Shown: positions 9,117 to 53,938 of the stretch, piece after piece
How the letters are laid out: every line of letters starts with the position of its first letter
Numbering within the stretch: the first letter of the stretch is position 1
Assembly (NCBI GenBank): GCA_963920765.1
Contig: OY987243.1
Span: forward strand, 20,765,419 to 20,829,418
Source of the DNA: Ulota crispa
Taxonomy: Eukaryota; Streptophyta; Bryopsida; Orthotrichales; Orthotrichaceae
Reading direction: 5' to 3'
DNA length: 64,000 nt
The notes under the pieces: model-generated
The model's input: only the letters and a program-made list of their open reading frames with translations
What the model was told of the DNA's origin: nothing
Database searches by the model: none
Program-made: the position numbers and the translations under genes

Positions 9117-9660
9117 TTAGATCATCCAATGTTTTGCATATAACATACAATATGCGGGAGAAATCTACTGACAATTTGAATATATATCCAAACATATTTC
9201 TCAGTTACATTTTTTGAATTTTGAACTATCCTATTTTAAATAAATATGGCATTTTGCCAACATCGTTACATATTTCAAATATGCTAACTTACGTGCCTGT
9301 CTAGGGTCATGTGCCTTGTTATTGCCCCATGGGGCTTTTCAATCATGCCTTAGGGCTTGTGGTTTTACTAGTAATAACCTAGGAGCTCTAAATCATGCAT
9401 AATACCTTATCTGCACTAAGAATCACAAGGATTCAAAAATATATTGATCTTATGACCATATTCGTGTACATGTAACATGGGAATCAGGTTCTTGTTTTGT
9501 TTTTTATTTAACTTCATGAAAATACAGGTTTTATAATCACTTCTATATGATTGGTTGTATTTGACATGAAATTTATGTCCAACTTCAAGGTACTCAGAAT
9601 TTCAAATAGGTCCTATGTGCAAAACTGTCACTTAAAATCCTACAACAACAATTGATATTA
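9117..9660. other. AT-rich intergenic, no feature seen
   Basis: No coding or inverted-repeat signal recognised. Confidence 0.3.
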
Positions 9661-9930
9661 GGGAAAATTTCATGGATACACCTGAAGTTTGCAATGTTTT
9701 CATGGATACCCGTGCTTTTTCAAAATATCATAAATATCCTTGGACCAAAAAAATTAGGTGTTTGTTTTGTTGTGCATGGCATTTCTCTTCTTCCTTTGTG
9801 TTCTTGCATAACATGAACAAAGTAGTGTGTGCACAAAGGGAGAAAGAAGTTACATGCATAACAAAACAAATGCCTGAAAATTTTGGTCCAAGGATATTTG
9901 TGATAAATTTATGAAAAAACAAGGGTTTAG
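9661..9930. mobile_element. GGGAAAATTTCATGG foldback element, right end lost
   Basis: The left end GGGAAAATTTCATGGATAC and the central inverted parts match the elements at 31273-31597 and 52332-52646. The right terminus is not present, so this copy is truncated. Confidence 0.65.
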
Positions 9931-10663
9931 GGCATGAAGAAGTTTTTGCACATGAAGTATTTTCCAATGTGTGTCTCATTATCATCTTGCTCTTCTTGCT
10001 TTCACCTTTCTTATTACTACTTCAATGTGAATGCAACTTGCTTTCTCATTACATCACCAATTTTTAGGAGAATTCATTCTCCATTCTCCACCATCCACGA
10101 TAGAAACTCTCACCTTCTTCATGAAAAAATGCTCCCATTGCCTCCTGTTTCCACTTCGCAACTTCCCATTCTTCATAGATGGAAGTTGATACCCGAGCAA
10201 TGTCTGCAAGCATAGCAAAGTAATCTATAAGAGTGCCATTCAGGAAAAATAAATCGTTTTTAGAATGAATTTGTATATGATAATTATAAGAAACCTTTAA
10301 CAATTTATGTCAAAACATTTGTTTTCGGCAAGAGTTCTACAGGCATTTCCTGTATGTGTACCGGCTTTCAAAAAGAAATTGCAATTTTCCATTGTTATCA
10401 GGATTAACTGTGGTGACAAAATTTCTGCACAAGATGGATATGTCCTCATATTCATTTTTGAGAATTTGGATATTTGGAAAACAAAGAAAAATTGGTTATA
10501 TTCCCCAACGGATTAAAATCGACCAATTTAGCTGTGGAAATTAGCTCTTTGTGGGCATAATATGACCAATTCAAAGTCTTGAACTCAGCTGAAAATTTCT
10601 ATTTGTGGGTCAGAATTCGGAGCTAGAAATCTCCAAAATTGCAAAAGTAATTTTTTTATAAGA
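9931..10663. other. Intergenic, no feature seen
   Basis: Short open frames on both strands lack recognisable motifs. Confidence 0.3.
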
Positions 10664-12739: not shown

Positions 12740-14262
12740 TTACGAGGCTTTGGCGGCAGCTTCGAGAGCCTTCCAGACGGCAATGCAGAATCTGTTGTCC
12801 AGCGAGGCGTGCTCGTTCATGGGGACGTAGGTGGCAGTCCAGGTGGCCGTCGTGGTTCCCTCGGTCGGTCCCGGAACGAACTCCATCACGGCCGAGACGT
12901 GCTTGAATCTGGGGTCACCCCTGATCACCGTGTACCCTACTCTCTTCGTCTTCTCGTCGAACACGTCCAAGCGCTCCACCACTTCCCCGCCATTCGGAAT
13001 CACTGCAAAAAACCACGCCCGGCCATACAACTCATGAGCTCCAAACCCCAATTCTCATAAAACAGCGAAAAAGTTGCGCAGCAGAAGATAAATCAATCCA
13101 AACCCTAATTCTCATGGATCAACGAAAAAGTTGCCCAGGAAGGGATTGGAATCGCTGCGAGAACAAGACCAAATCTAGTGAGAAGTCACAGAAGCGGAAC
13201 TTGGCGTCAACCTGATTGAATTCAAGGTCATGACCTCAAGAAAAACTGTCCGCAGTGACACACGCCCAAATTGACTAAAATGTCCCAATTGATTGAAATT
13301 TGACAAGAATCGACAAAAACATGTCCAAATTGACAAAAAGGTGTCCGAATCAGGGTGCCCAAATTGACAAAAAAATCTCCAAATTGACACTGCTCCCTTG
13401 TAATGTCAAGGGATATGGCAAGATTCGTACCAGGGCCCATTTTGCAGACGCGGATGCTACCCACTTCGCCATTGCCTTGAACGAATGTGCAAGACTCGAA
13501 GATATGCGGCAGCGCTTTGGGCAGAACGCTGTTCTCCACCTTCACGACCTTCCAGATGGCGTCCGGAGTGGCGTCCAAGGTTCCGGTGTGCGTCAAAACC
13601 TTCTTCGCCAGCACGGCTTTCTCAAACGTCTTGAACATGAGGCTGGTGACGCTCTTGATGTGCTCCGGAGGGCCGGCATCGCCCACGGGATCGTACTTCC
13701 CAGTCCAAGTGGCTGCTGTTTGATTCGGCCCCGTGGAAACGAACTTCACCTCGCCTGTGAAGTTGGTGTAGCGGGGATCGCCTTCCATCACTGTATAGGT
13801 CAACGTTTTCGTGGCATCGTTGATGGTGTCGAGCCGTTCCTTTGCCGCTCCTGCTTGCGGAATGGCTGCCACGGCACACATTCCAACAAAACCACGCTAA
13901 ATACTCCACACCGTTCCCAGATCGAAGCGGAAACGGCAACGGCAACGGCAACGGCACGCGATCAGGAACTAGAACTTCTGAAACGCAGGACTCTTACACT
14001 GAAGCTTAGTTGTTTTGTGTTGCAGACGTGGATATGGCTATGGCGCAAGTGCTTGAAGTGGAATTAGGTTGGGACATTGCTCACCAGGGCCGAAGTGCAA
14101 GATGCGGAGGGTGCCTGGACCGCCGGAGCCTTCTAGAATCTCCATTTTGGAGAAGTACTCGGGAAGCAAATCGGGCAATATTTTGTCCGAATGCTTGCAA
14201 CACTCCCACGCGTCGTGCGCTTCGCAAGTGAGCACCTCGGTGAGCGATATGACATGCGCCAT
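12740..14262 (-). CDS. Two-domain Bet v 1/PR-10-like protein (copy A)
   Basis: Three exons: 14262-14085, 13865-13431 and 13002-12740, giving 291 residues. All introns are GT-AG and phase 1. Residues 1-145 form one Bet v 1 domain, with a glycine-rich P-loop EGSGGPGT at about 44-51, then KERLDTINDATKTLTYT and a C-terminal helix ending FEKAV. A second domain starts near residue 150; its P-loop is degenerate (QGNGEVGS). Single-domain PR-10 proteins are about 155-160 residues. They are cytosolic hydrophobic-ligand carriers or enzymes with one intron near codon 61-62. Here an intron falls at codon 60 and again at the matching place in domain 2. The start was chosen because MAH is shared with the paralogue at 24839; an in-frame Met lies 8 codons upstream. 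Intron 2 holds a miniature CACTA-like repeat. The ligand is unknown. Confidence 0.9.
13231..13405. mobile_element. CACTA-like miniature repeat in intron 2 of PR-10 copy A
   Basis: Carries repeated (t)ccaaattgacaaaaa boxes and an end reading CTCCCTTGTAATG, close to the complement of CACTACAAGGGAG. The other end (ctcaagaaaaactgtc) is diverged. Same family as 29699-29856 and 35608-35763. Confidence 0.5.
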
Positions 14263-22374: not shown

Positions 22375-24839
22375 TTAAGCCTTGGCAGCACCTTCAAGGG
22401 CCTTCCAGACTGCAACGATGAACTTACTCTCCATGGTAACACCCTCTGCAACAGGCACATAAGTGGCAGTCCAGGTGGCAGTGGTGCTTCCCTCTGTCGG
22501 TCCAGGAGCATATTGAGCCACGGCAGAGACGTGCTTGAATCTGGGATCGCCTTTAATCATTGTGTAACCCACCGTCTTGGTAGCCTCGTCAAGCAAATGT
22601 AAACGCTCCACAAGCTCTCCGCCATCAGGAATAGCTGCACAAAAAAGTGGACCATCAGAAAAAAAAAACACTCTTTCCAACCTTATGCCCAAGTGTCACC
22701 CAAACTTGAAAATTGAGCAATATCTGTAAGGTATTGTGCTCAGTCCAATTGCAACCCTCTCAGATAAAGCGTCCCATAGGTAGGTTACAAATGGATATGG
22801 AGTGGTCCTTGGATGAACCCCTTTTTAAGTCCTAGAAAATAAGGTGTATTCTATTGCAAGCGCCAATCATACTTCTTGATTTCACCTCATCTCTTCACAA
22901 GTTGCAAGGGGACGGTTTATGAGAGACTTAGAGTCACAAATAGGTGTCTACTACAAAAAAAAATTGAAAATTGATCAACAATTCAATAATGCTTCAAAAA
23001 ACATGAAAAATAGAGTTACATTTATCATCCATTAGACAAAAATCTTTTTGCCTTCAAAAGCCCATGAAAAGGCAAACCAACCCTTAAAGTGTCGAACACC
23101 ATATTAGATAAATTGGGAAAAAAAGTACATTCTAAGATGTTCACTATTTCTATCATTATGTACAATTTAACACATTACACAAAAATAAGCGTGCATTTTC
23201 TTTAACAATAGTGAAACCTCAATGATTACTTCCAAAAACTTCAAATGAAATACAACTTTGAGCTATAGATATGCCTACATTTACTATAATTATGTAAGAT
23301 TAAGGTGGAGTACAAAATGGTCCCTCCTTTTTCCCAATTTACCTAATATGGTGTGACTCGGTTTTAGAGCATACTACTACCTTAATGAGAAACTGATGAA
23401 CAAAAAATTAGAGTAGAAATTTTTCTTAGGAAGAGTGTCAGCATACCAGGACCCATCTTGCAGACGCGGATGCTGCCAACTTCGCCGTTGCCCTGGACGA
23501 ATGTGCAGGACTGGAAGATCTGAGGCAGGGCTTTGGGGAGGATGGTGTTCGCCTTCTTCACTGCACCCCAGATGGCGTCCGGGCTGACGTGGAGTGTCTC
23601 GCTGTGCGTCAAAGTCTTCTTGGCCAGGACGGCTTTCTCGAAGGTCTTGAACATGAGGCTGGTGACGCCCTTGATGTGCTCCGGAGGACCGGCTTCGCCC
23701 ACGGGGTCGTACTTCCCCGTCCAAGTTGCTTCCGTCTGGTTCTCACCTGTGGCAACGAAATGCAACTCTCCTGTGAAGTTGGTGTACCTGGGATCGCCCT
23801 CCACCACTGTGTATGTCAACGTCTTGGTGGCGTCGTCCACCGTGTCCAGGCGTTCCTTTGCAGCTCCTGCTTGTGGAATGGCTGCGCATTCAACACAGGT
23901 CACTTGATCACCTTGTTGTCTACTTAAGGTAGGAGGTTCACAAACCGACCATCTTAAGTCTGAAACTGAATTTTGGGGAGGTGAAACATCTTGGAATATT
24001 TTTCAGTAAATAATCAGTAAATAACTCTTGAAAGACGAGGAATTGGCATCTAATGCAACTTGTTTCATATTCTTTGGAGCTTTATGAAATTAGTTATGAG
24101 ATTTTGAAGTTGAAGTGACATAGGACTCAAAGACCATCAACCTCCTCATATGTACTCTGCTAGTACTTTATTGAAGCCTATGAAAAACCGCATCTATAAA
24201 ATAAGTACATTTAAGAAGGTGGACGGTTTGAGCGGAATATGAGCCTCCTGCCTTAATTGAGAACCACCATTACAAACATTCCTTTGCCTCATCCAAGCAT
24301 CAAGCAGATCACACAAATCAGGATGAAAAGCTCACACAGAAGCTGCTCTTTCGGTATCCATGCCGAAGTGAAACAGCGATCTCGAATACCACACAGAGCT
24401 AATCACATGCTCTTACAAACACAATTCCTTCCATAAACGGCTCTAAACCATCAAGATATATCGATCCCATTCATCGATCCCATTCATCGATCCCATCCAT
24501 CGATCCCATTCATCGATCCCATCCATCGATCCCATTCATCGATCCCATCCATCGATCCCATCCCTCGATAACATCCATCGATCCAGATGATGGTGGACTC
24601 AGCGAAAATGTGCTCAACTACAAAAAAAAATTGCCAATTTGCAAGAGGAAAACAATCTTACCAGGTCCGAAATGCAACACACGGAGAGTGCCGGGACCGC
24701 CGTTGCCCTCGAGAATCTCAAACTTGGCGAAGTACTCCGACAGCAGATCAGGTAAAACCTTGTCAGAATGCTTGCAGCACTCCCACGCATCCTCAGCTGA
24801 GCAGTGGAGCACCTCGGTATGGGATAGGGTGTGCGCCAT
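22375..24839 (-). CDS. Two-domain Bet v 1/PR-10-like protein (copy B)
   Basis: Paralogue of the gene at 12740-14262, same strand, about 8 kb away. Exons 24839-24662, 23881-23447 and 22634-22375 encode 290 residues. Exons 1 and 2 have exactly the same lengths as in copy A (178 and 435 nt), and the last is 3 nt shorter. Domain 1 has the Bet v 1 P-loop EGNGGPGT. Domain 2 begins around LTHSETLHVSPDAIW and has QGNGEVGS in place of the P-loop. About four in five residues of the middle exon match copy A. The introns are larger than in A (780 and 812 bp). Intron 1 holds a TA-flanked MITE and a 13-bp minisatellite; intron 2 holds an ACACCATATT foldback. A GC-rich palindrome lies about 180 bp upstream of the start codon. 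Role inferred: binding of small hydrophobic ligands, as in PR-10 proteins. Confidence 0.9.
23096..23354. mobile_element. ACACCATATTAG foldback in intron 2 of PR-10 copy B
   Basis: Inverted ends ACACCATATTAGATAAATTG and ACACCATATTAGGTAAATTG. Same subfamily as 8863-9116. Absent from intron 2 of copy A. Confidence 0.8.
23937..24253. mobile_element. Stowaway-like MITE in intron 1 of PR-10 copy B
   Basis: TA at 23935-23936 and 24254-24255. Ends AGGTAGGAGG and AGGCAGGAGG. Absent from the 219-bp intron 1 of copy A. Confidence 0.8.
24461..24584 (+). repeat. 13-bp minisatellite in intron 1 of PR-10 copy B
   Basis: About nine and a half copies of TCGATCCCATYCA, with alternating C/T variants. Confidence 0.9.
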
Positions 24840-30765: not shown

Positions 30766-31272
30766 TATTTTTATTTCATGCTTTTAATGTCATATACAAT
30801 TTTGCACAAATGAGTGTTCCATATTTATCCACTTTTACCAACATCATCAACATCCTTGCAGCTTTAACTACCTTTTAGAACTTGAAATTGTCTCAACTCA
30901 AACAAGCCTATTGTACATTGAGAATAGATTGAGAATATACTAGTGGTAAATTGTTGACAAACTTGTAGTGATTTTAAATGCATCTAAATCATAATTACAT
31001 TTTTTTTCCAAATGATTTTTTTCTAACACTTCTCTTAATTAGATTTATGTCAAACTTTAACATGCTCCTTTCTTTAAGCTTTTCAAATATGTAATTAGTT
31101 TTAGATTTGATAAAATATTGATTGCGTGAGAAAATTATAAAAAAACGGACTACAACTTTCTGTCTAGGACTCTATGATGATTGGTAAAAAAAACACATGA
31201 TTACAAACTCAAAACCATCTTTAATTCACATGAAAGTAAACAAACCACTTTTTGTGAATATAGTATTTTTTT
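30766..31272. other. AT-rich intergenic, no feature seen
   Basis: No coding or repeat structure recognised. Confidence 0.3.
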
Positions 31273-31597
31273 GGGGAAATTTGATGTATACCCCTGAAAT
31301 TTCCAATATTTGTTCAAATGCCCTTGGTTTTTCAGAAATTGCTGATATACTCTTAAACCATAATTTTCATGTGTTTGTTCCCCGGTCTATTCTATTGTGC
31401 ACATCATTTCTTTCTCCCTTTGTGCACATGCCAAGTGAAAAAGAAGTAATGTAGGCACAAGAGAAGATGGAAGGTGGCGTGCACAACAAAACAAACGCGT
31501 GAAAATTATGATCCAGGGATATTTGGGCAATTTATAGAAAAACCATGAATATTTGTACAAATATTGCAAATTTCAGGGGTATCCATCAAATTTTCCC
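31273..31597. mobile_element. GGGAAA foldback element with 9-bp target duplication
   Basis: Ends GGGGAAATTTGATGTATAC and GGGAAAATTTGATGGATAC are inverted. The flanks tattttttt and tatttttta match at 8 of 9. Central inverted cacaaagggagaaag-like arms. MULE-type target duplication. Confidence 0.75.
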
Positions 31598-31736
31598 TAT
31601 TTTTTAGTTGTTTTTTGTCATTGCAAAAACAAAGGCTAGGTCACACTACGGTATCTCAACAAAAGTGCAAATCAACTGATAAAGGATTGCTTTATGGACC
31701 TCCAACCATGGAGACCTCAAAAGAGCGTGTGGCGTA

Positions 31737-35161: not shown

Positions 35162-37567
35162 CTACGAAGTGTTTTCTTGCGACAAGCGCAGGCATTCGCG
35201 CTGCAGATCGGCAAGCATTTCCCGAATGATCCTTTCCGTGACACCCATGACGTAGTTGTTGAGCGGCCAGGGAGGAACAATGGCCGGCTCCAGAATTTGT
35301 TGAAAATTGACCCACGATCCAACCGGTGCTGCTGCATTGCTCTCCTGTGACTCAATCGACATAATATCACTGGCCAGCATGGGCTCTATCTTCCAGGAGC
35401 CTGAGAATTTCTTCATCATCCCTTGTTGCGAGAGATCAAACAGCAGCTGCACCACAAGAGAAAAATGTCTGTAAGATAAAGATTCCTAGGAGAAATATAT
35501 ACATAAATTTCTAGAGAGCTCTAGCTGAGTATTCTCTCAATTGGCATGAAAGGAATCCTTAACACCTTGTTCTGCACCTCCTAAATCAATGTCCACGAAG
35601 ATCTGACCACTACAAGGAAACACTGTCAATTCGGTAATTTTTTTTGTCAGTTCGGACGTGTCAATTTGGACATTTATTTTGGTTAATTTAGACAATTTTT
35701 TTGTCAATTCAGACAAATCTAGTCAATTCAGACGTGTCAATTTGACTCTGTTTCCTTGCAAGAGATGCCGGATGAAATGCTCATATTTTTTATTCAAACT
35801 TGAAAGATGTAAGAGAAAAAAAACTGACTCTGAAAAAAAAATGCTGTAACAATAGATAGGATAATCGAGAGAAATCAATGGGCGATTATTTGGCCATTGG
35901 TAACAGAGGAAAGTCACAGCGCAGACTTCTCTGAAGTATTTCTAAAACATTACTTTAAATTGCCATGAAAAGGAAATGCCAACTAAAGAGAATCCACAAC
36001 AACTTCTTCAATCTGCAAAGTTAGCTCATTTTGAACAAGCGAGTCCATAAGCCATTGTCTTCGCAAGTGATAATTTAGTTCAATATAGTTGGATCTTAAC
36101 ATGACCTTGCCTCTAAATGGCTCTTATTTGGCATTGTTCTCAAAATTTACTATGCCCTGCACTATTACTTACCATCTAAGATCTCGTTTTTCACCATGAC
36201 TTAGTTTGAATGTGTTATAACCGCCCACTAGTCAATACCACTGTGGCAAGTGTGCAAGATATTCTTGAAGAAAACATCATTATGAGGAGGTTGAGTGCAC
36301 TACTTCAGGATGTCACAACGAATGTTGTGTACATCTTTCGTATTAAAAAGCGGGAAGCGAAAATACAAACGACATTCACAGCAATTCAGAGAGATTAGTA
36401 CCAGTGATCCTAAATGTGATTTTCACTTTTAGCTGAAATGGCTAAAAACACTGCTAAAATACTAAAACTTTCAAGCTTAACACTGTAAAGTTCACAAGTT
36501 TTTTTTAGCTGCATAATTTTTTTGGTAGCAATCATACGAAATTTAGCCAGTTTAAAGATCGCTGATTGAGTACCGATTTTTCATTGCGGTTCTGCTCCAC
36601 AATTACTCGTGACGAGAATGTTCCCGAAAGCATGAGAAAGCGCCACCGTCCAAGTTGCTCCACCTCCACCAGCTGCCGGTTGCCATCATCCTCCAACACT
36701 TTCCGAAAGACGACCTCCTGTTGTTACAGCAATACAATAGCACAACACCATCCCCGATCACCATCTTCTCACCAAAAAGCACTTCATTCTTACAACTCGT
36801 TCTCTAAATCTTCACTACAGGAAAGCGGAATATTCTCGTTCTCCCTTTGATAATTCAGAAACAAATTTTCAAAAAATTAAACAGTTTTTTGATGTGCGTA
36901 CTTATAGATAGCTTAAGAACAGTGTCTTTAAAAACGCAATCGAAAAAGACGACCTCCTGTTACAGCAATACAATAGCACAACACCATACCCGATCACCAT
37001 CTCCTTACCAAAAAGCACTTCAATCGTACAACTCGTTCTCTAAATCTTCACTACAGGAAAAGGCGGAATATTCTCGTTCTCCCTTTGATAATTCAGAACC
37101 AAATTTTCAAAAAATTAAACAGTTTTTTGGTGTGCGTACTTAAGTTACAGTTTAAGAACAGTCTGTGTCTTTTAAAAACGGAATCGAAAAAAACTTAAGA
37201 CAATTGAAAAGTAAGAGTGAAAACAGAAATACTCTGTTTTCCAGCAACTAAGCTTAAGCTCTACATTGCGAATTAAGTCATTGACACTGTTAGCGAACAC
37301 CTTAGTTACCTTGATGTTCTTGAATACACGGCGGTTGTTAGGATCCGTGATGATGTTGTACACACCTTCGGGATCCAATGCCACGGAAAAGCGTGCGTCG
37401 ATCTGGCAGAAGCTGCCTTTCGGCTGCGTCACTTCCAACACCGGCGGCTCGTGGACGAACTCCGACACCGGCTGCCACGCTTCATCTTCCAACTCCGCCT
37501 GCCCGCCTCCGTCCACTCCATCTAAAAACTTCGTAAGCTTACCGTCGGCATCGCCACCTCTCTCCAT
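35162..37567 (-). CDS. START-like (SRPBCC) lipid-transport/polyketide-cyclase type plant protein
   Basis: Three exons, 37567-37310, 36717-36574 and 35446-35162, joined in phase 0 by GT-AG introns, give 228 residues. After an acidic N-terminus, about residues 45-86 carry [20 protein letters not shown], typical of the START-like fold opening. Exon 2 reads [19 protein letters not shown] and then [18 protein letters not shown]. Exon 3 has [29 protein letters not shown] and a C-terminal amphipathic helix ([12 protein letters not shown]). This pattern matches plant proteins annotated as polyketide cyclase/dehydrase and lipid transport superfamily. A DUF220-type label is possible but not verified, and the substrate is unknown. 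Intron 1 contains a tandem duplication that includes the exon 2 acceptor. Intron 2 begins with the intronic repeat at 36402-36564 and also holds a CACTA-like miniature element. Confidence 0.85.
35608..35763. mobile_element. CACTA-like miniature in intron 2 of the START-like gene
   Basis: Starts CACTACAAGGAAACACTGTC and ends CTGTTTCCTTGCAAG. Several gtcaattcagac/gtcaatttggac boxes. The right terminus is diverged and no 3-bp duplication is certain. Confidence 0.65.
36402..36564 (-). mobile_element. Intronic ~160-bp element (copy 1), 9 nt from a splice donor
   Basis: On the gene strand it begins CAGCGATCTTTAAACTGGC and ends GGATCACTG. Flanks GTACTCAAT and GTACTAATC look like a diverged 8-9-bp target duplication. 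The upstream flank is itself the first 9 nt of intron 2. Related copies at 46222, 46674 and 52212. Confidence 0.75.
36708..37190. repeat. 239-bp tandem duplication in intron 1 of the START-like gene
   Basis: Two copies offset by 239 bp. Each contains the exon 2 acceptor context (CAGGAGGTCGTC on the gene strand) and about 10 nt of exon 2, so a decoy acceptor lies near 36956-36958. Confidence 0.85.
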
Positions 37568-45758: not shown

Positions 45759-48700
45759 ATGCATGGGAGACCACGGCATCGGGCAGGGGAAGCGCCCTCT
45801 CCCGTGGACAAGCAGGAGCAAGCCTACGCGGCCGAGCTCCGAAAGCTCATGCCTCCTTTCATGGAGAATAATCGCACCTGCTGGTAAGATTTGCCGTTTT
45901 CCTCTTTCGATCGCTAGGGTTTTGTATAAATCAGTTGAAGACTTAACGAGCACGTAATTTTTATTCTTGCAGCTACTCAACGGAATCCATGAACCAAAAT
46001 GCACGATTGCTGGAACTCAACCCTGATTTTCTCACGGCTTGGAACTATCGGAAGCGTGCTGTGCAACATCTGTGGGAGCTGGATTCCGATCGCAAGCGGA
46101 TTGCTCAGACAGAGCTCGATTTGGTAATGCTCTGCCGCTTTTAAACCCTAAATTGATGTGACAGCTTGGAATAATTTGAGTTGAAGTCTGAATTAGGTCA
46201 TTCTGTGGGAGATCAGGACTGCAATGATCCCAGACATGATTTATGCTTTTAGCTCAAATGGCTAAAAACACTGCTAAAAAGCTAAAATTTTCAAATTTAA
46301 AGTTCAAAAGCTCTTTAGTTGCATAACTTGTTTGGTAGCAATCCTGCGAATTTTAGCCAGTTTAAATATCGGTGGATTTCAGGAGACGGTGGAGGTGACG
46401 GAGACCCGGGTTTGAGGGTGTGCGGGACAGGTTGTCAGAGCCTTGAGGGCGAACCCTAAATGTTATGGAGCTTGGTATCATCGCAAGTGGATCATTCGGT
46501 TTGGACTTTCTTCTCTGGATGCAGAGCTTCTGCTGCTGAAGAAGCTCCTCAAATTAGAAGCTCGCAATTTCCATGGTTGGAACTATCGCAGGTGCTTGCT
46601 TGCTTGCTTGTCTCAGTTACTGCACAAAATTTGCTTTTTCTATCTATCAGTTTCCTATGTCTAATTTTTAAATCACAAAAATTTAAACTGGTTAAATTTC
46701 ACAGGATTGCTACCCAAAACATTATGCAGCTGAAGAACTTTTGAACTTTACAGTGTTAAATTTGAAAGTTTTAGCTTTTTAGCAGTGTTTTAGCCACTTG
46801 AGCTAAAAGTATAAACCATGTTTGGGAACATTGTGATTCACAATGTGTACATCCTTGCCTTATATGTGTTCCTTTGCCTACATCCAAGAGGTCGTTTATC
46901 ATATCAAGGCTGAGTGGAAGTGGACGATCTTTGATGATTATTTTGCAGATTCATTGCAAAGACGAAGGGCGTCGCTGCTGAAGAGGAGCTACAATTCACC
47001 ACTGATAAAATCAACGAGAATTTCAGCAATTACTCTGCCTGGCATAATCGTAGGTAAATATGTAAGCACATTTTTGGCTTGTTGAATTCAACTTTGTTGT
47101 AAGTCGGACTTTCGGAGTTCGAATTGTTGTTATTAGTTTAATTACACCTTAAAAGATGCTGATCGAATTTACTATTGTGACAGTGGTTAATTTTAATTTT
47201 ATTCTCGTTAGAAAATCGAAGAGGATTCTAGTGCACCAATGATTGCATTGTTTTGGTAGATGATCTAAAATGGACACAAATTCTTGTGGTAAGGTGGCGT
47301 ACGCCCGTAAAATCAATATGTACTCCCTTCTACAAGATTTTAGGGTATTTACGTTTAGGTGTATGACTGAATTAGGTACATCTATGTTATGTCAATTTTG
47401 ATTAAATGATTTTTTTTCTGGTGCGTATTTGTGCAGTGCATTATTGGCAGAGATCTCCAAGAGGACAGACACAAAGGATAGCAAAGTTCAAGAGAGCCTG
47501 GAAGAGGAATATGAGTTGGTGAAGACTGCCTTCTACACTGATCCAGACGACCAAAGTGGATGGTTCTACTACTCCTGGCTACTGGGGCAGACCATAGCTC
47601 CGGTACGCACTCATGTCAATGGATGCTGGCCCCCGGCAGAGTCCCAGATTACAATTGATTGGGAGAAAAAAACCTATAAACTTCCTTTCAATAAACACAC
47701 TGCGGAAAAATTAGAAGCCTTACCCTTGGTGCTTTCCTTTAGCAACGCTGTGATTGGTGTAAACAATCAAACTGTGTCTGTCAGTGTTAATGGAAACGAT
47801 GCTTTGGAGCTTGACTGGAGACCTGTTGAGCCGTGGCAAAAATATGGTCAGAAATGGACCACAGATATTATGCACCACTTGCCTTCAAACAGTGGGCAAC
47901 ACGCAGTCCATATCTTGGTGGGTGCAGTTCCAGGCATTGTGTCTTTGATTGGACAAGAGTGTGCGAGCTCTTGGAAGTCGAGGTTTCATGTTCTTCTGGG
48001 GGAGGCGTCTCCTGTGGACGATGTAAGCTCAGTAAAAGAGGAGGTTAACGTTAATAGTGAAACGGCTGATGGATCAGATATTTGGCAGCTGAATGTTTTG
48101 GATAGAGAAATTCAATCTTGTCGGGAGCTGCTCGAGCTGGAAAGCAAAAGGTAATTATTTCTACACCTTTGTAAGTTTTATAAGCAAAATATATCCTCAG
48201 GTCGTTTTGTTCAGCCGTCTGTTTTCACAGTTGCCATACTGTGGAGATAGGCTGTTGGATTTCACTGATGTCAAGTACAGAATAATGGATGCAATTATTG
48301 CTTATTTATATCCTTGTATAATGAACGATTGGCTAACACGGATTTTATTTTCTTCTTTTTTCAGCAAGTGGACAATGTTAACGCTGGCAAGGTTGTTATT
48401 GACACATGCCTCATACAACTCTAGTTCCCGCAAAAGTCACATGGAAGAAGCACATACACATTTTGGAGTACTTGAAAGCTTAGACCCAACTCATCGGGAG
48501 TATTATCGACATCAATCGAGCTTACTTTCTTTGAAAAAGGTATGTATTGGATTATTCATTCTGAAATTCTTTCTCCTATTGTCTCTATGGCGGTTGTTGT
48601 TTACCGTTGTCTCAAGTAAGTCACCGAACAACGATTACTCCAAGAATCTTTTATATTTCAAAGTTACATGCTCAGGTTGCATGAAGTGATTGCAGACATG

Positions 48701-51044: not shown

Positions 51045-51712
51045 ACAAACTCGTCCTATCACCCTAGTAACTCATGATATACCAAACCTTTGCAAGGAGC
51101 TGAGAAAAGGGAGGAGGCATTGCAAAGCCATTTCCCATTAGTAAATCTCTGTAAGTTGCCCTCAAATTTGCAACGGAGAGCAGAGTGTATTACATTCTTT
51201 ATCTGTTATTTTGTTCTATCATTCCCACTATAAGAAATCAATTTGGCTCATATTAACAACTGCTACAAAAAACCGACCACACAAGAATGTGGAATCTAAA
51301 CCCTAATACTAACTACTACAAAAAAATCAACCAAACAAGAATGTGGAATTAGGGTATAGGCCAAGGGATGTGAGAGGTTTCGGGTTACAAACACGTCCTA
51401 TCACTTTAGTAATCCATGATACACCAAACGCTTGCAAGCAGATGAGAAAAGGGAGGAGGCATTATAAAGCCATCTCCCAATAGTAAACCTCTATTAGTTG
51501 CCTTCAAATTTGCAACGGAGAGCCGAGTGTATTGCATTCTTTATCTGTTATACCATTCTACCATTCCCACTGTAATAAATCAATTTGGCTAATACTAACT
51601 ACTACAAAACCAACCAACCAAGAATGTGGAATCTAAACCCTAATACTAACTACTACAAAACCAACCAAACAAGGATGTGGAATTAGGGTGTGGGGCTTAG
51701 GGAGGCGAGAGG
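51045..51712 (+). repeat. 342-bp tandem duplication downstream of FeSOD
   Basis: 51045-51386 is repeated at 51387-51712 with moderate divergence (shared gagaaaagggaggaggcatt and gaatgtggaatctaaaccc). Each unit itself contains repeated ctaatactaactactac motifs. Confidence 0.85.
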
Positions 51713-51780: not shown

Positions 51781-53059
51781 TTATTTCTCAGGAATGACAG
51801 GCTCGCCTATATTGACAAAACTCTTGGCTCGAGCGAGTCGTTCAGCAACGGCAGGCCAAGAGACCAAGTTATTGAGAAATGCGGACAAGTAATCTGACCT
51901 CCGGTTTTGGTAATCGAGATAATAAGCATGCTCCCACACATTAACGGCTAACAAAGGAATGTGATCCCAAACAATAGGGGTGAGAGCATTCGAGGTTTTG
52001 ATGATGTCGAGCTTGGCGTCTTTCTTGAGCACCAGCCACACCCACCCGGAGCCGAATTGCGACACACCCGCATTCTGGAACTCCTGAGCAAACTCCGCAA
52101 AGGAACCAAAATGCTTAACAATGAGCTCCAGGAGCTCCCAGTCCTGGGGGGGCTCTCCGCCTCCGCCGTGGCACATGGACGACCAGAAGAACTCGTGGTT
52201 CCAGACCTGGGCAATGATCCCAAACATGATTTATACTTTCAGCTCAAATGGCTTAAAAACACTGCTAAGAAGCTAAAATTTTCAAATTTAACGCTGTAAA
52301 GTTCAAAAGTTCTTTAGCTGCATAATTCGTTGGGAAAATTTCATGGATACTCCTGAAGTTTGCAATAATGTCGTAAACACCCCTGCTTTTTCAGAAATTT
52401 CACAAATACTCTTGGACCAGGATTTGCAAGCGTTTTTTTTTTTGTTGTGCATGACACTTCCCTTCTTCCTTTGTGTGCACACTAGTTCTTTTCGTTATGC
52501 GTGCGCACAAAGGAAGAAGGGAAGTGGCATGCACAACAAAAAAAAACCCTGAAAATTTTGGTTCAAGGGTATCTGTGAAATTTCTGAAAAAGCAGGGGTA
52601 TCTATGAAATTATTGCAAACTTCAAGGGTATCCATGAAATTTTCCCTAATTTTTTTGGTAGCGTAGCAATCCTGAGAAACTTAGCCAGTTTAAATATCGC
52701 TGCAGACTCACCTGGGCGGCGTTGTTGAAGTAGGGCAACGGGTTGCCATTGTTGTACCCGTGCAACAGCAGCTCCGACAAGTTGAAGCGCTCGGCGTCAG
52801 TTCCCTCCACTTGCTTGTTCAGATCCTCCACGTAGCCGCGGTGGTGCTTCCCCCAGTGGAGCTCCAGCGTCTTCTTGCTCATGTGCGGCTCCAAGGCGTC
52901 CAGCTCGTACGGGAGCGGGCGCAGGTGGAACTCTGCGCGGGGGACGCCGCACCGGTCTCGCCTCCTGCTCGAGGACGGAGCTGGTGTCGTTTGTCTGGTG
53001 CCGGGGTTCAGGAGCGTGTTGGTGAGGAAGGACGAGCCGGCGATGAAGCTGACCGCCAT
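51781..53059 (-). CDS. FSD3: Plastid iron superoxide dismutase, FSD3-like
   Basis: Two exons, 53059-52712 and 52206-51781, phase 0, 257 residues. Residues 1 to about 42 are Ser/Thr/Arg-rich and look like a chloroplast transit peptide. The mature part starts near LPYELDALEPHMSKKTLELHWGKHH. Fe-type markers are clear: the first ligand H68, Q116 in FNNAAQ (the Fe-type active-site Gln), H120 in VWNHEFF, and H209 in WEHAYY. The C-terminus FVNIGEP and the stretch KTSNALTPIVWD resemble Arabidopsis FSD3, which acts in plastid nucleoids with FSD2 to remove superoxide. The normally invariant ligand Asp of DVWEHAYY is Asn at residue 205 (codon AAT at 51942-51940). The single intron is essentially one transposable element with another nested in it. 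Another in-frame Met lies 18 codons upstream; MAVS was preferred as the likely transit-peptide start. The gene is convergent with the RabGGT gene. Confidence 0.93.
52212..52702 (-). mobile_element. Intronic element (copy 4) forming the FeSOD intron
   Basis: On the gene strand the intron is GTGAGTCTG, then the element from CAGCGATATTTAAACTGG to TTTGGGATCATTG, then CCCAG. Its two parts (52212-52331 and 52647-52702) are split by a nested foldback. The flanks CCCAGGTGAGTCTG and CCCAGGTCTG look like a target duplication with 4 extra nt in one copy. Confidence 0.8.
52332..52646. mobile_element. GGGAAAATTTCATGG foldback nested in the FeSOD intron
   Basis: Ends GGGAAAATTTCATGGATAC are inverted (315 bp). 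The flanks taattcgtt and taatttttt match at 7 of 9. Same family as 31273-31597. It entered after the host element. Confidence 0.85.
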
Positions 53060-53297: not shown

Positions 53298-53938
53298 GGG
53301 CATTGATATGTGCACCACACCCTTTGAACCACTATACCACACCCCGGTTTAAATTTTAGATTTCTACCATCAAAAAGCTAAATCTGAGAATTTTGAATTC
53401 AAATTTGGACTTAGAGACCATGATTTAGTCTAGAACAATAAAAAAAGTTGCTATTCAACAACACCCAATAAAAAAACTTATATTTTTTACAAACAAAAGT
53501 AAAAGTAATACTTTTCTCCCTAGCTAAACTTTTTCATTGGGTGTTGTTGAATTGCAACCTTTTTATAATTCTAAGGTAGTGTGTTCTACTTGCGTTCACA
53601 ATCTAATTGCGTTTGGCTCTAGGAACAAGAGACATTTTAGATTAAATATCTATGAGTGTCATTGATGAATTAGGTGGCACTAGCTATTTATAGCTAGTGC
53701 CACCTAATTCATCAATGACACTCATAGGTATTTAATCTAAAATGTCTCTTGTTCCTAGAGCCAAATGCAATTAGATCATGAACACAAGTAGAACACACTA
53801 CCTTAGACTAAATCATGGTCTCTAAGTCCAAATTTGAATTCCAAATTCTCAAATTCAACTTTTTGATGGTAGAAATCTAAATTTTATCCCGAGGTGTGGT
53901 ATAGTGGTTCAAAGGGTGTGGTACACATATCAATTTCC
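53298..53938. mobile_element. GGGCATTGATATGTG MITE with 9-bp target duplication, interrupted
   Basis: Flanks tataaatac and tataagtac match at 8 of 9. Ends are inverted with a single-base variant. Split by the TA-flanked palindrome at 53574-53803. It begins about 240 bp upstream of the FeSOD start. Confidence 0.8.
53574..53803. mobile_element. TA-flanked palindrome nested in a MULE-like MITE
   Basis: TA at 53572-53573 and 53804-53805. Ends AGGTAGTGTGTTCTA are inverted. Strongly similar to 30076-30295. Confidence 0.85.

Follow-up and report, generated by a model that had tools for sequence, protein, structure and literature searches.

A candidate for intron creation by transposon insertion in an FSD3-type iron superoxide dismutase gene

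The sole coding-region intron of a predicted FSD3 gene is best explained, with a probability of roughly 0.7 as judged from the sequence, by insertion of a transposable element of about 160 bp into an AGGT-containing exon site, where the duplicated target would have supplied both splice junctions and where a foldback element would have arrived later. The intron is a clean candidate for a known mechanism, intron gain by transposon insertion, and does not represent a new kind of event. Only rarely is intron gain observed with its source still recognisable; should relatives be found without this intron, it would stand as a clear case from plants where both splice junctions came from target duplication and a 4-nt change completed the consensus donor. 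The window referred to below is the whole 64-kb stretch of DNA that was analysed, and the features located in it are collected in Table 1.

The FSD3 gene and its intron

The minus-strand gene at 53059-51781 was assigned, on the basis of its predicted product, to the FSD3/PAP4-type chloroplast iron superoxide dismutases (FeSOD). The spliced product comprises 257 aa and matches the Pfam families Sod_Fe_N (PF00081) and Sod_Fe_C (PF02777). Among solved structures, its best relatives are PAP4/FSD3 chains in the plastid RNA polymerase, and the alignment with 8qma_G (E 4.6e-88) runs without a gap across the AAQ|VWNH junction. By its gene content and style, the window was judged to be plant DNA. Open frames and splice consensus were combined by hand into the gene models used for the window, and the intron count given for FSD3 is that of the coding region of a predicted model. 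The intron, which is presumably spliced, has a length that leaves 1 when divided by three, and the unspliced frame reaches a stop at the 138th codon (0-based index 137). CTGAA, a candidate branch point picked by motif match alone, starts 36 nt before the intron end and within the element; the stricter CTRAY motif had no match in the last 60 nt. The whole intron was predicted to fold at -241.6 kcal/mol, compared with a mean of -112.0 for 100 shuffles (z -19.6), which corresponds to a very stable hairpin. As a separate observation, it is the nested foldback (52332-52646, minus strand) that makes the intron RNA fold, and it could yield small RNAs inside an antioxidant gene.

Searches were also made outside the window. 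A FeSOD scan of GTDB genomes matched 50 stretches, 18 of which encode a relative, all 18 in bacterial records; one locus (L018), which contains a piece with 65% identity, was considered as a plant contaminant and rejected, as it reads as a broken bacterial gene. The same scan of viral contigs gave four pattern matches, none of them encoding a relative; one 21-mer of the outer element had no exact match in these contigs, and plasmids contained no match to the FSD3 intron.

Table 1. Location of the FSD3 gene, the repeats within its intron, and related copies in the window
Feature	Coordinates	Strand	Basis
FSD3 exon 1 (ATG to ...NNAAQ)	52712..53059	-	spliced translation, PDB match PAP4/FSD3, Pfam PF00081/PF02777
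FSD3 exon 2 (VWNH... to stop)	51781..52206	-	spliced translation, PDB match
Sole FSD3 coding-region intron (predicted), GTGAGT...CCCAG, 505 nt, phase 0, Gln116/Val117	52207..52711	-	gene model
Outer element, CAGCGATATTT...GGATCATTG, ~176 nt without nested foldback	52212..52702	-	BLAST, copy alignment
Left target copy, on the donor side, CCCAGGTgagtCTG; its 4 extra nt complete the GTGAGT donor	52703..52716	-	flank alignment
Right (acceptor-side) target copy CCCAGGTCTG	52202..52211	-	flank alignment
Nested 315-nt foldback, ends GGGAAAATTTCATGGATAC / GTATCCATGAAATTTTCCC	52332..52646	-	inverted repeat, 114-nt arms 86% complementary
Left 9-nt foldback flank AAAAAATTA	52647..52655	-	by eye
Right 9-nt foldback flank AACGAATTA	52323..52331	-	by eye
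Outer-element copy, 163 nt, starting 9 nt into the intron of a DUF220 gene; flanks GTACTcAAT / GTACTAAT	36402..36564	-	BLAST, flank tests, gene model
Outer-element copy, 153 nt, Rab geranylgeranyltransferase alpha gene, intron 2; flanked by 98 and 56 nt of other intron sequence	46222..46374	-	BLAST, gene model
Outer-element copy, 160 nt, in intron 3 of the Rab geranylgeranyltransferase alpha gene; 82 + 115 nt of non-element intron beside it	46674..46833	+	BLAST, flank tests, gene model

The outer element and its copies

Comparison of the FSD3 intron with the window using BLAST revealed three more copies of the outer element (best pieces E 7.7e-42, 7.2e-36, and 2.9e-28), with lengths of 163, 153, and 160 nt and all without the foldback. 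Pairwise identity among the aligned pieces ranged from 78.5 to 91.3%, and the copies end alike in the alignment, with CA[GC]... at one end and ...ATTG or ACTG at the other, the first 7 nt of the 46674-46833 copy having drifted from the common end. Since the foldback-free copies fix both ends of the element, just 14 nt of the FSD3 intron are non-repeat, and the mobile element found there is full-length and bounds the intron, as is looked for in a transposon-created intron. Counted by coordinates, it consists of 9 nt (GTGAGTCTG), 56 nt, the 315-nt foldback, 120 nt, and 5 nt (CCCAG), i.e. 505 nt, in which 52702-52647 and 52331-52212 are parts of one repeat split by the foldback. This agrees with the earlier note, where the intron had been described as 9 nt, a repeat containing a foldback, and CCCAG; the copies found by BLAST and the coordinate tally confirmed that make-up. 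The nested order proposed there was also borne out, since the foldback interrupts the repeat and carries 9-nt flanks of its own and hence arrived after the outer element.

A profile built from the four copies detected no fifth copy above threshold in the 64-kb window; the E-values that it returned for the four themselves are circular and were not taken as evidence. None of the four copies showed significant terminal inverted repeats (P 0.06 to 0.49). MITEs of the hAT type are characterised by terminal inverted repeats and an 8-bp target duplication. The ends of the 36402-36564 copy (CAGCGATC / CAGTGATC), together with its 8-nt flank repeat, hint at hAT; assignment of the outer element to that superfamily was weighed but not adopted, the terminal-repeat test having failed. 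It was also observed that the FSD3 copy contains a 5-nt tandem duplication, GCTAC (52658-52667, minus strand), that is missing from the other three.

Flank repeats and the origin of the intron

The FSD3 element is flanked on its donor side by CCCAGGTGAGTCTG and on its acceptor side by CCCAGGTCTG. An alignment of these flanks that was made to start and end exactly at the element, and that contained a single 4-nt gap, scored 7.4, under a gap cost and anchoring that were picked after the flanks had been seen. When both flanks were shuffled, 0 of 4,000 trials equalled that score; among simulated old introns, drawn from a plant-like donor and acceptor consensus with approximate frequencies, 4 of 20,000 did. 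When variation was confined to the last 5 nt of the intron, with exon 2 and the donor side kept as observed, P was 0.010 (5,000 draws); when intron positions 7-9 were varied as well, 0 of 5,000 draws reached the score. Local alignment without the abutment requirement, evaluated against 20,000 random window pairs, gave a weaker result than the anchored test for FSD3 (P 0.0055), and P values of 0.066, 0.066, and 0.91 for the 36402, 46222-46374, and 46674-46833 copies, respectively. The repeat, CCCAGGTgagtCTG / CCCAGGTCTG, spans both splice junctions and is imperfect: the 4-nt gap is needed, 8 nt per side fail to match without it, and much of the repeat is splice-site consensus. The earlier note had read these flanks as a single target duplication with 4 extra nt and had placed both splice sites inside it. 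The flank sequences proved to be as given there, and the repeat, imperfect as just described, does span both junctions.

The other copies bear on the same point. The 36402-36564 copy is abutted by a near-perfect 8-nt duplication (anchored P 0.002), the repeat beside the 46222-46374 copy is weak or marginal (anchored P 0.029), and none was detectable beside the 46674-46833 copy (anchored P 0.46), each value being based on 4,000 shuffles. With flank repeats that are clear in two copies, weak in one, and absent in one, it is probable that the family duplicates some 8-10 bp of target on insertion.

According to the preferred explanation, a non-autonomous element of about 160 bp would have inserted in an uninterrupted GCC CAG GTC TGG of the FSD3 exon, a site that was presumably intronless until then, with duplication of some 10 bp of the target (CCCAGGTCTG). 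The CAG|GT donor junction would derive from the left target copy and the CCCAG|GT acceptor from the right one. Because the junctions lie in both target copies, splicing would remove the element and exactly one copy, leaving the protein unchanged; removal of the element and one flank copy from the sequence does yield an uninterrupted GCC CAG GTC TGG. The consensus donor would have come from 4 nt gained by the left copy (GTCTG to GTGAGTCTG), and the donor appears to have been strengthened after insertion, as the 4-nt difference between the copies turns the weak GTCTGC into GTGAGT. A foldback of Mutator-like anatomy would then have entered the outer element with a 9-bp duplication.

A DNA transposon of maize, Ds, is said to form a de novo intron in a coding region, in work attributed to Giroux and dated 1994. 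Ds is a recognised hAT element, and its de novo intron comes from a laboratory allele. The two cases would share an intron formed from a plant DNA transposon within coding sequence; the FSD3 element differs in being short, unclassified, and seen in one genome sequence.

The proposed events resemble the AGGT-duplication model of intron gain presented by Yenerall and Zhou 2012 (PMC3443670), as outlined in the portion of that paper used here, in which insertion at AGGT leaves a duplicated target that serves as donor AG|GT and acceptor AG|G with the coding sequence unchanged. They depart from it in the 4 extra nt of the left copy and in the second transposon received by the element. A table in the same portion (PMC3443670) includes intron gains by transposon insertion in Oryza, Drosophila, Oikopleura, and Zea. 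The paper also names double-strand-break repair and tandem duplication among the mechanisms of intron gain, and a copy of the element might have been captured by either route, through filler DNA at a repaired break or when an AGGT segment was duplicated in tandem. Imperfect flank repeats fit filler repair as well; the captured sequence is, however, a full-length element with both ends intact, for which transposition is the simpler account, and such a route is considered very improbable.

The main rival to intron creation by insertion is an ancestral intron at the Gln116/Val117 boundary, which is regarded as unlikely. Under it, FSD3 retained a phase-0 AAQ|V intron and lost its others, the element entered beside the donor of this intron, and later deletion of the rest of the original intron left 9 + 5 nt. 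The excerpted gene descriptions report seven introns (8 exons) for Arabidopsis FSD3 (PMC6882211), 8 exons for Os06g05110, the rice homologue of Arabidopsis FSD3 (PMC8068833), and 3-8 introns for Brassica FSD genes (PMC6425617), in each case as counts without codon positions. The Arabidopsis and rice structures allow an ancestral intron at or near this boundary; the lack of any other intron in the coding region of the present gene, compared with the seven of Arabidopsis, was counted in favour of insertion. CAG|GT is itself splice consensus, and an element of this family also landed 9 nt into the DUF220 intron, which is 1,127 nt long and has 955 nt of other intron sequence beyond the element; the element can therefore land beside an existing donor. 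Invasion of an old FSD3 intron would nevertheless require a deletion ending exactly at the 3' end of the element, and the abutting CCCAGGT/CTG match would have to be due to chance (the 4 in 20,000 above). Insertion behind a donor further predicts a right flank equal to the nearest left bases, TGAGTCTG, whereas CCCAGGTCTG was observed. It is the need for both an exact deletion and a chance flank match that sets this alternative well below creation by insertion. In the DUF220/polyketide-cyclase-like gene (36402-36574, minus strand), it was noted separately that the target duplication of the element includes the donor GT.

All four outer-element copies lie inside gene models and two of the four start exactly 9 nt into an intron, which raises the stronger form of the insertion hypothesis, overlapping with it and not additive to it, that the family repeatedly makes introns in this genome in the manner of introners. 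An intron composed of the element plus 9 and 5 nt was found in FSD3 only among the four copies, with 14 nt of non-element intron there versus 98 + 56 and 82 + 115 nt in the two Rab geranylgeranyltransferase alpha introns. As the other three copies do not constitute introns by themselves, the window lends no support to such a family, nor were many similar introns at different positions found within the 64 kb. In the parts of the large survey by Gozashti et al. 2022 (PMC9860276) drawn on here, land plants are reported to be without introners, and some introners elsewhere are described as taking both splice sites from the insertion site. The FSD3 intron is like those introners (PMC9860276) in being made up by an element whose target duplication can recruit splice sites, and unlike them in being a single intron, with no family of element introns shown. 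The introner form is accordingly judged most unlikely. The related proposition that the family directs its insertions to CAG|GT or donor-like GT sites, and that several introns in the genome were made by it, is given little credence; if true, it would amount to an introner-type system in a land plant. The designation of introner-like intron birth in the earlier note is therefore retained in part: an insertion-made intron is favoured by the element ends that the other copies reveal, the abutting duplication, and the small amount of non-element intron, and the word introner was set aside on the count of zero in three other copies in the hand-made models.

The nested foldback and neighbouring sequence

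The flanks of the FSD3 foldback, AAAAAATTA / AACGAATTA, form an imperfect repeat in which 7 of 9 positions match, as counted by eye. Two more foldback copies were located by BLAST near 9657-9987 and 31267-31609, with extents taken from a profile. At 31270, the other copy with both flanks scored, the flanks TATTTTTTT/TATTTTTTA match at 8 of 9 positions, likewise by eye. Mutator-like foldback MITEs are recognised by long inverted arms and a 9-bp target duplication. The nested element has the long arms, and its flanks may represent a duplication of about 9 nt; its likeness to members of that class is one of anatomy, as no transposase or family relation was identified.

Several further features of the window were recorded. 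A search for structured RNAs gave no Rfam match at gathering scores and no tRNA in the 64 kb. Upstream of FSD3, at 53302-53934 and about 240 bp from the start codon, there is a second large nested foldback, with 131-nt arms that are 93% complementary and 118-nt arms that are 96% complementary. Just downstream of FSD3, at 51045-51683, a 217-nt unit is duplicated (86% identical) and accompanied by 44-nt repeats. Finally, similar-looking ORFs are present at 13228-13881 and 23382-23903 (minus strand), the first of the Bet v 1 / polyketide-cyclase type and the second compared with it by eye, and these possibly represent a duplicated gene.
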